Below are positions 30,604 to 32,492 of a stretch of 32,492 nt of DNA, piece after piece. Positions within the stretch are counted from its first letter, which is position 1, and each line of letters starts with the position of its first letter. This DNA comes from Bacteroidota bacterium. GTDB taxonomy: Bacteria; Bacteroidota; Bacteroidia; NS11-12g; UBA955. The notes under the pieces are model-generated. The model saw only the letters and a program-made list of their open reading frames with translations. It was not told the origin of the DNA and searched no databases. Where the stretch lies: NCBI GenBank assembly GCA_027490055.1, contig JAIXYV010000076.1, positions 1 through 32,492 of the forward strand. Direction: 5' to 3'. The translations under genes and the position numbers were made by a program.

Positions 30604-31235
30604 TGTTTCGGTTTTTTAGGAAATTCGATGGCCTCAAACAAATCGCGAAGCGAATCATAGGTATCGAAATCTTTAGCTTTTATAAAAGCTTTCTCTACCC
30701 AGCGTACTTCTGTGATTCCTTCTTCCAACTGAGGTGTTACTGAAACATCGCCCCAGGCTGCCATTCGGTACCAGGCTGATTTTTTCAGAATCCATCTGCC
30801 TTTCAAATGATAGACATGATAGGTATTAGCCACTTTACCTAATATACCCAGGAAGTTCAGTCCGCATTCCTCATGTACCTCGCGCAGTGCCGCTAAACGC
30901 TGATCTTCTCCCGGTTCTAATTTACCTTTTGGCAGATCCCATAAACCGAGACGTTTGATAAGGAGTAACTGACCATCTTCATTGAAGACTACGCCACCTG
31001 CTGCTTTAATCAACTTAAAGTGTTTCCTTAAGCGCTTAAACAATTCGCCTGGATGTTCTGATTTAAAGACCAGGTATTTCTTGCCCTCAAAGGTTCCGGA
31101 GGTAAGTTGATGCAAGACTTTATCCAGCGAGTTACTGCGGAAGTTTTCACATTCCTTATTGTTGGCAAATTGATTATTATTTGTCAGGACAATGGTATGT
31201 TGATTAATGAATATTTTATAGTTTTGTTCCGCCAT
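30600..31235 (-). CDS. Nudix hydrolase
   Basis: The start is ATG at 31235, giving 211 aa (MAEQNYKIFINQHTIVL...); a longer reading to 31358 would lie wholly within pyrE and is rejected. The Nudix box GX5EX7REUXEEXGU is complete: G104 KLEPG E110, R118 E119, H121 E122 E123, G125 L126, preceded by LWDLPKGK. The enzyme would hydrolyse a nucleoside diphosphate linked to another group, substrate unknown. The N-terminal 70 residues form a separate domain, typical of the Bacteroidota proteins found next to pyrE. Its start codon overlaps the pyrE start by 2 nt on the other strand (CCATGG), and its stop overlaps the convergent gene in CTAG. Confidence 0.9.
   Translation of the reverse strand: MAEQNYKIFINQHTIVLTNNNQFANNKECENFRSNSLDKVLHQLTSGTFEGKKYLVFKSEHPGELFKRLRKHFKLIKAAGGVVFNEDGQLLLIKRLGLWDLPKGKLEPGEDQRLAALREVHEECGLNFLGILGKVANTYHVYHLKGRWILKKSAWYRMAAWGDVSVTPQLEEGITEVRWVEKAFIKAKDFDTYDSLRDLFEAIEFPKKPKH
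31219..31226 (+). promoter_or_regulatory. -7 box for pyrE, inside the Nudix gene
   Basis: TAGTTTTG matches TAnnTTTG and ends 7 nt before the pyrE ATG at 31234. It lies within the first codons of the minus-strand Nudix gene. TTG at 31200-31202 is 16 bp upstream, shorter than the usual spacing. Confidence 0.5.
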
Positions 31236-31887
31236 GGTATCATCTGAAATCAGTGCAAAAATAGCACAATACTTATTAGAATGCGAAGCTGTAAAGCTAA
31301 ATGTAGAGAATCCTTTTACGTGGACCAGCGGAATGCGCTCTCCAGTGTATTGTGACAATCGCGTGACGCTTTCCTATCCTCACATTAGAAAGTACATAAC
31401 CAATTGCCTGAGTGCTGTCATCAGAGAACAATATCCTGAAGTAAAAGGTATAGTTGGTGTTGCTACAGCCGGGATTCCACAAGGCGCATTGATTGCAGAC
31501 GAACTTAATATTCCATTTGCCTATATCCGTTCTGAAGCCAAAAAACATGGCCTAAAAAACGCGATCGAAGGTCACCTCGAAGCTGGCTGCAAAGTAGTAG
31601 TTGTTGAAGACCTGATCAGCACTGGCAAAAGCAGTTTAAAAGCTGTAGAGGATTTAAGAGAGAATGGTTTTGAAGTTATCGGACTGGTTTCAATTTTCAA
31701 CTACGGATTTGCCGCTACCCATCAAAAATTCGTGGAGGCCAATTGCCCATACATTTCTCTTTGCGATTTCAATACCTTAGCGGCAGAAGCAGCCAAAACC
31801 AATTACATTAGCGAGGATGCACAAGCCAAGGTTGCTGAGTGGAGCAAAGATGCTCAAGCCTGGAGCGATGCGTTCCAAAGCAATTAA
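31234..31887 (+). CDS. pyrE: Orotate phosphoribosyltransferase
   Basis: The 217-aa protein joins orotate to PRPP to make OMP, the fifth step of pyrimidine synthesis. It has KLNVENPFTWTSGMRSPVYC (21-40), the substrate loop RSEAKKHG (99-106) and the PRPP motif VVVVEDLISTGKS (121-133). Full length and start agree with other Bacteroidota PyrE proteins (start followed by SAKIAQYLLECEAVKL). The gene is divergent from a Nudix gene with overlapping start codons, so both promoters lie inside coding sequence. There is no gene after it for at least 600 nt. No UTP-sensing attenuator was recognised, and the near-leaderless start leaves little room for one. Confidence 0.96.
   Translation: MVSSEISAKIAQYLLECEAVKLNVENPFTWTSGMRSPVYCDNRVTLSYPHIRKYITNCLSAVIREQYPEVKGIVGVATAGIPQGALIADELNIPFAYIRSEAKKHGLKNAIEGHLEAGCKVVVVEDLISTGKSSLKAVEDLRENGFEVIGLVSIFNYGFAATHQKFVEANCPYISLCDFNTLAAEAAKTNYISEDAQAKVAEWSKDAQAWSDAFQSN
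31256..31263 (-). promoter_or_regulatory. -7 box for the Nudix gene, inside pyrE
   Basis: The minus strand reads TATTTTTG, a full TAnnTTTG match, 20 nt upstream of the Nudix ATG at 31235. It lies in codons 8-10 of pyrE. It forms an interlocked pair with the pyrE box at 31219-31226. Confidence 0.45.
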
Positions 31888-32245
31888 TATTCAATGTGAT
31901 TTTTCCTTTTTTTTGACACATAGATATTATGTTGTTCCGTACGTTTTTTAGTAGACATAGAACACATTAAGATTCTATAATAACCATGCGCGCGTTTGAC
32001 TCGCTTTGCGAGTTGATGGTGGTAATTTAATGATCCTTTTTTACATATAGTACAGCGTACCCAAGCCCGGAGCGATGCATTTCAGGGATAATGGATTTAG
32101 GTATCTGTGACTTGCCATAAACAACCAGCATCCATGTGCCAGCGGCACTGAACAATCTTTATTTATAGAAGAACAAATCTGGTAGCCTGGCGCCAGCGGT
32201 GCCGGTAGACAATAAAATATCCGTCGGACCCGCGGTCCACGGTAA
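31888..32245. other. Non-coding, hairpin-rich intergenic stretch
   Basis: No convincing gene is seen here. Four compact hairpins with 3-nt loops occur: ACTCGC-TTT-GCGAGT (31999-32013), GTGCC-AGC-GGCAC (32136-32148), CTGGCGCC-AGC-GGTGCCGG with two wobbles (32187-32205) and GGACC-CGC-GGTCC (32226-32238). The second and third share the loop and flanks (GCC AGC GG). The GC-rich hairpins contrast with the AT-rich DNA around them and look like fragments of dispersed palindromic repeats. A T-rich stretch at 31902-31915 lacks a stem, so a terminator for pyrE is unclear. Confidence 0.6.
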
Positions 32246-32492
32246 AATGCGAAGCGAGAACGACAATTACAAGAAACTTGACACTGAACCGGTATTTGTT
32301 GTTATCGGTTTGCAGGACGAAGTTTTCGAAGTCGAAAAATGCGGAATGAACTCCTTGTTCATGAGCAATTTTGAGACAAGAAACCTGAAATAATGCGAAG
32401 CGAGAACAATAATTACAAGAAACTTGACACTGAACCGGTATTTGTTGTTATCGGTTTGCAGGACGAAGTTTTCGAAGTCGAAAAATGCGGAA
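32246..32492 (+). repeat. 146-bp tandem repeat, running off the window
   Basis: A unit starting at 32246 (AATGCGAAGCGAG) begins again at 32392; the 101 bases of the second copy that are visible differ from the first at only two sites (CGAC versus CAAT after GCGAGAA). Each unit opens with an ATG (32247, 32393), and the first ORF (MRSENDNYKKLDTEPVF..., 48 aa) stops at TAA 32391-32393 in TAATG, overlapping the next ATG by one base. Because 146 is not a multiple of 3, units form separate stop/start-linked ORFs rather than one long protein. Each unit also carries the stem-loop AACCGGTA/TATCGGTT (copy 1: 32287-32310). No protein family was recognised, so coding is doubtful; the repeat itself is certain. 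Confidence 0.9.

Follow-up and report, generated by a model that had tools for sequence, protein, structure and literature searches.

Does the short tandem repeat that closes this stretch of DNA encode a chain of small proteins, or is it an element whose folding leaves a reading frame open? The window, i.e. the whole stretch of 32,492 nucleotides analysed here, is contig C110 of a draft genome of 121 contigs that is 96.8% complete. A first-pass annotation of the same letters described units of 146 bp at its right end, with open reading frames (ORFs) joined by TAATG. It proposed either a recently expanded repeat array of an unknown element or a chain of micro-genes, and our results support the repeat array.

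Extent and location of the array

The tandem repeat has a period of 146 bp and the contig ends inside it. The two copies in the window are identical at 99 of 101 bases, which agrees with the two differences counted before. The array was also said to run past the window, and it does resume on C54, another contig of this genome. Specifically, C54 begins with a 25-bp tail followed by a full unit (unit 3, 97%), a divergent unit (unit 4, 90%, 142 bp) and, directly against the lpxA stop codon, a final piece of 24 bp. Extending and counting in this way gives at least four units over C110 and C54, and further units may be lost at the contig break. No other match to the repeat was found by searching the draft genome beyond these two contig ends. 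From the near-identity of the units we infer a recent expansion. The features of the window are as follows:

31234-31887 (+): left neighbour, read from its sequence and synteny as pyrE (orotate phosphoribosyltransferase)
32246-32391 (+): unit 1 as delimited in the first-pass annotation, full, 146 bp; holds the 48-codon ORF 32247-32393
32247-32270 (+): right arm, ATGCGAAGCGAGAACGACAATTAC, of the truncated element that opens the array on the left; holds the ATG of the ORF; sequence as in the right arm of the complete elements
32271-32291 (+): 21-nt spacer AAGAAACTTGACACTGAACCG between palindrome ends
32292-32416 (+): complete palindromic element 1, with left arm 32292-32340, tip 32341-32367 and right arm 32368-32416, drawn from inverted-repeat pairing in the aligned C54 copies
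32341-32367 (+): tip hairpin GCGGAATGAACTCCTTGTTCATGAGCA, a variant member of the cross-phylum tip family whose loop has 5 nt, placed by covariance model R2, pattern scan and covariation
32392-32492 (+): unit 2, 101 bp, ended by the contig end
32417-32437 (+): second 21-nt spacer, from the unit alignment
32438-32492 (+): element 2, left arm and first tip bases, ended by the contig end, from the unit alignment

Synteny shows that, in four species of the genus, pyrE homologues and lpxA are convergent. The ends of C110 and C54 are therefore most simply one locus, in which the repeat occupies the space between the converging genes pyrE and lpxA. With a model built from the units we found single divergent copies beside lpxA, on the same strand, in two relatives, G006 (E 1.5e-5) and G014 (E 2.6e-4), as well as candidates at scattered places in other parts of the genus. 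At the orthologous place in a third relative, G012, an apparent remnant of the element can be seen by eye. Outside the tip, the arms of the array's own copies and of the relatives' copies at this gap are hard to align, so that independent insertions are possible. Note that the same pyrE-lpxA gap of G014 (L087, G014:C99, about 830-1800) carries a 1-kb array of other hairpins (GCGAGACTTGTCGAGCA, TGCGAGCCTGAACAGGCGAGCA, CATGGGGTG-CACCCCATG). Other intergenic tandem repeats occur in the window's genome as well, with periods of 114, 200 and 104 bp (L061 1243-1551, L065 1751-2143 and L075 2140-2331, respectively).

The open reading frame and the palindrome

Unit 1, with the ATG at 32247, and the full unit on C54 both contain the 48-codon ORF and its TAATG junction, and the description of joined ORFs is correct for these two. 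Unit 2 is ended by the contig end. In the last, divergent unit the 48-codon frame contains two in-frame stops, and stops in later units were what the first-pass annotation itself had set against micro-genes. It had also advised comparing synonymous with non-synonymous changes. Units 1 and 3 differ by five base changes that alter three residues; changes between units are mostly non-synonymous and they respect base pairing, i.e. they track pairing and not codons. Moreover, the length of the ORF is within chance for a tandem unit of such composition. An ATG ORF of at least 48 codons appeared in 38% of trials with dinucleotide-shuffled tandem units, and in 18% the ORF stop also overlapped an ATG. 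Published miniature inverted-repeat transposable elements (MITEs) of similar size often have uninterrupted ORFs too (PMC2229807, PMC2759123).

Searches for relatives, which had been suggested for other Bacteroidota, speak in the same direction. The 48-residue peptide has no relative in 70 genomes of the family and 395 of the phylum, none in 84,980 species genomes or IMG/VR, and no match in Pfam or NCBIfam. At the DNA level the 146-bp unit has no relative among 17 genomes of the genus; searching the order with it gave chance matches only (17-42 bases), and it matches no plasmid and phages only at chance level. That each unit encodes a 48-residue peptide, translated from coupled micro-genes by reinitiation at TAATG, is consequently very improbable, although the frame is open in units 1 and 3 and its TAA overlaps an ATG. 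The start codon sits within the right arm of a palindrome. The 48-codon ORF is a by-product of a stop-poor palindrome.

When the repeat unit is re-centred, it consists of a 125-nt imperfect palindrome and a 21-nt spacer. The ends read GTAA...TTAC, and the terminal inverted repeats GTAATTGTTGTT / AACAACAATTAC agree at 12 of 12 positions in the last copy. According to structure prediction the element can fold into one long hairpin, with -54.9 kcal/mol for the last copy and -37.8 kcal/mol for the full C54 copy. The + strand of the units is predicted to fold far better than shuffled sequence (z -3.6, -2.9 and -5.8). When the differences of unit 4 are applied to unit 1 or unit 3, the predicted fold is better than that of 999 out of 1000 random mutants carrying changes of the same types; the remaining comparisons between unit pairs are weaker. 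Covariation among the array's own units is not significant because the units are too alike, and the claim of covariation therefore rests on the cross-phylum set described below.

The stem-loop AACCGGTA/TATCGGTT reported in the first-pass annotation is present as sequence but is not part of the predicted fold, where its bases enter longer and stronger pairings. A first structural reading with two hairpins per unit was also given up: its first "hairpin" comes from pairing between neighbouring elements, the right arm of one with the left arm of the one that follows.

A hairpin tip found in several phyla

Judged by sequence, the tip of the array is a member of a family with representatives in several phyla. 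The 26-base pattern GCGnAGTnnRCTnnTGYnnATGAGCA that describes the tip occurs in at least 118 stretches of sequenced species genomes, while about 8 would be expected by chance according to our own arithmetic (18 base equivalents, 257 Gb, two strands). Among 108 genomes of the order it has 5 matches and the reversed control none. The 80 matches listed include loci in Pseudomonas, Stutzerimonas, Shewanella, Mariprofundales and Desulfobulbaceae, and further carriers among them are Bdellovibrio, Clostridium, Listeria, Prevotellaceae (Bacteroidota) and others, with frequencies that are not comparable between taxa. Most tip loci among the matches listed have palindromic arms, and these differ by lineage. 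Tandem pairs of tips are found also in Mariprofundales (165 bp apart) and in Listeria grandensis (148 bp).

Since the search pattern itself prescribes part of the conserved tip bases, the independent evidence comes from its free positions and from model R2. Each of two stem pairs that the pattern leaves free is complementary in 84 of the 86 copies. Pairing holds in 91% of cells over 42 distinct tip sequences, and their covariation score is higher than in all 500 shuffles and all slid versions. Covariance model R2, which was built from these sequences and contains nothing from the window's genus, recovers the array at L007 258-301 (E 3.5e-10) and at positions 32332-32376 of the window (E 4.4e-5); the second full unit, L007 112-156, is a weak hit (E 0.037), and all these E-values are rough. 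In the 395 genomes of the phylum R2 finds copies in 30, with up to 10 per genome in one Bacteroidota family. In that family the closing pair of the tip has changed from G-C to C-G, a change that the search pattern excluded.

Many copies (L111-L190, L099, L100 and L235-L251) carry a second, non-complementary pair of motifs, CAAGG to the left and AACG to the right of the tip. A related palindrome, unannotated, lies at 2501-2604 of L229 and L230 (plasmids NZ_CP066271.1 and NZ_CP123227.1); on these plasmids of the Pseudomonas syringae group it stands between a transposase gene and the coronafacic acid genes.

The tip family was found in no RNA library, and neither the tip sequence nor MITEs of this kind were found in any paper within the literature searched, which covers few subscription journals. 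At the curated threshold no Rfam family matches the array, the relatives' loci or those of other carriers, and nothing convincing appears at E up to 5. Skipping-rope RNA gave a sub-threshold value at the array (E 2.1), not reproduced in relatives or other carriers. An integron attC site was considered and dropped, as no GTTRRRY/RYYYAAC boxes are seen by eye. With the family absent from Rfam and its copies unannotated in the plasmid records opened, small ORFs inside such repeats may be mislisted as proteins. The present case shows how a folded repeat can look like a chain of small ORFs.

One rival reading would be a structured RNA gene or RNA-processing signal under selection, for which tandem copies raise the dose and mobility is secondary. 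In its favour are a conserved unpaired loop (GnA opposite GA), a G-U wobble and covarying stems in distant phyla where arms and ends differ. The + strand folds much better than the - strand, and the structure is retained in the divergent unit. Against it, the loop and wobble bases are mostly fixed by the pattern, so their conservation is partly sample selection; no Rfam family matches, and the copies lie in all gene orientations. On balance we regard an RNA role of this kind as rather unlikely.

The orientation of the gaps bears also on a second idea, that the element is a bidirectional terminator of convergent pyrE and lpxA, multiplied by chance. The gap is convergent here, and a run of A and a run of T flank the tip stem in the relatives G006 and G014, which would suit a two-way terminator there. 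Yet a consensus scan of the array and of the G014 gap gave no terminator-like match, and divergent gaps are as common as convergent ones in other genomes. Among the matches listed, 34 copies lie in co-directional gaps, 16 in divergent and 14 in convergent ones. Copies in all gap orientations are not simply terminators, and we hold this explanation to be improbable.

Mobility, origin and known small repeats

In the Bacteroidota family with up to 10 copies per genome, the copies have GGG[C/A]A[C/T]CTC and its complement at their ends, with identical 4-bp duplications on either side in all 11 readable cases. Copies with GTAA...TTAC ends have exact 8-bp duplications in 3 of 16 cases, with a background of 0. 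The combination of GTAA ends and 8-bp duplications is known from the IS66 family. The end of copy L154, GAGACCTCTGCA, resembles the IS5-type repeat GAGACCTTTGCA that is listed in PMC4596501. With terminal inverted repeats and target-site duplications at these other places, the family behaves like MITEs, and its members would be moved by transposases in trans.

The array element, at 125 bp, is too small for a transposase gene, and its only ORF matches no protein family. Its flanks have no readable target-site duplication, and the host draft genome holds copies at this locus only. Because of the single locus we do not file the copy here as a mobile MITE. No partner insertion sequence (IS) with the array's own ends was found in the host draft genome. 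A search of five carrier genomes for an autonomous IS with the exact 13-mer of the terminal repeats returned only pairs about 140-175 bp apart and single ends.

Taking these results together, we consider it likely that a non-coding, MITE-like palindromic element was amplified locally in tandem to form the array, starting from an old single insertion at the pyrE/lpxA gap. The ancestral single copy would have arrived by transposition in an ancestor and stood between the convergent genes, where three related species have a copy or remnant. In this lineage replication slippage or unequal recombination, both of which long palindromes favour, would then have produced head-to-tail copies of it together with its 21-nt spacer. 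The structure itself may be used as RNA or as single-stranded DNA. More tentatively, one hairpin module whose non-Watson-Crick loop is conserved may be common to small mobile palindromes of several phyla with different transposition signatures (GTAA/8-bp and GGG/4-bp). The module would then serve as a signal, in RNA or in single-stranded DNA, which unrelated non-autonomous elements acquired or kept because it is recognised by a widely conserved host factor, a possibility that we rate below even chances.

Small palindromic repeats have been described genus by genus and are mostly thought to be lineage-specific. A tip that is shared across phyla while its arms and terminal repeats vary suggests a common functional part, one open to direct testing. 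ERIC/RU-1, Ypal/RU-2 and NEMIS/Correia MITEs are similar in being about 100-200 bp long, mostly intergenic and able to form long imperfect stem-loops (PMC2229807, PMC2759123). They share with the present family terminal inverted repeats, target-site duplications and often a chance uninterrupted ORF. These families, with ERIC/RU compared by kind only, differ in being specific to a genus or order with one consensus, whereas here the tip alone is shared across phyla and arms and ends vary. Unlike dispersed MITEs, the element occupies a single tandem locus in its host genome.

MIRU minisatellites of Mycobacterium tuberculosis are likewise intergenic tandem units of similar size. MIRU units hold small ORFs with overlapping start and stop. 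They occur at 41 places, mostly in operons (PMC2734929, PMC3635867), while the array studied here is one locus between convergent genes, is palindromic and has its ORF broken in the last unit. BrickBuilt of Porphyromonas gingivalis (PMC4596501) is also from Bacteroidota, MITE-like, intergenic and tandemly repeated, and some members of the tip family, such as L154, have IS5-type ends. In BrickBuilt a 23-nt unit is repeated inside one MITE found at 19 places (PMC4596501); in the present array the repeated unit holds a whole palindrome, and the place is a single one.

REP/BIME repeats and the GTAG/CGTC palindromes (PMC3733652) are intergenic palindromes as well, sometimes clustered and between convergent genes. 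Spread of the element by a RAYT transposase, as a repeat of this type, would fit its palindromic, intergenic and tandem nature, the one Y1 transposase gene in the genome and the CGTC-type hairpin directly left of the array. By the definition in PMC3733652, REPs measure 20-40 bp and bear a GTAG or CGTC tag, in contrast to the 125 bp of an element that has neither tag and lies at one locus instead of many. We therefore give this origin very little weight.

The adjacent hairpin itself, CGTCGGACCCGCGGTCCACGG at 32217-32249 of the window, has at least 15 similar places in the genome and resembles the CGTC-tagged REPs of PMC3733652, which have been reported in Bacteroidetes. Only one Y1 transposase domain (PF01797, RAYT/IS200-like) was found in the genome; it is at G000:C67:35440-35745 (L096), and this transposase is a possible mover of the genome's REP-like hairpins. 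Two more interspersed repeat families lie at 31906-32024 and 32129-32207 of the window; both have many copies in the genome, often near contig ends.
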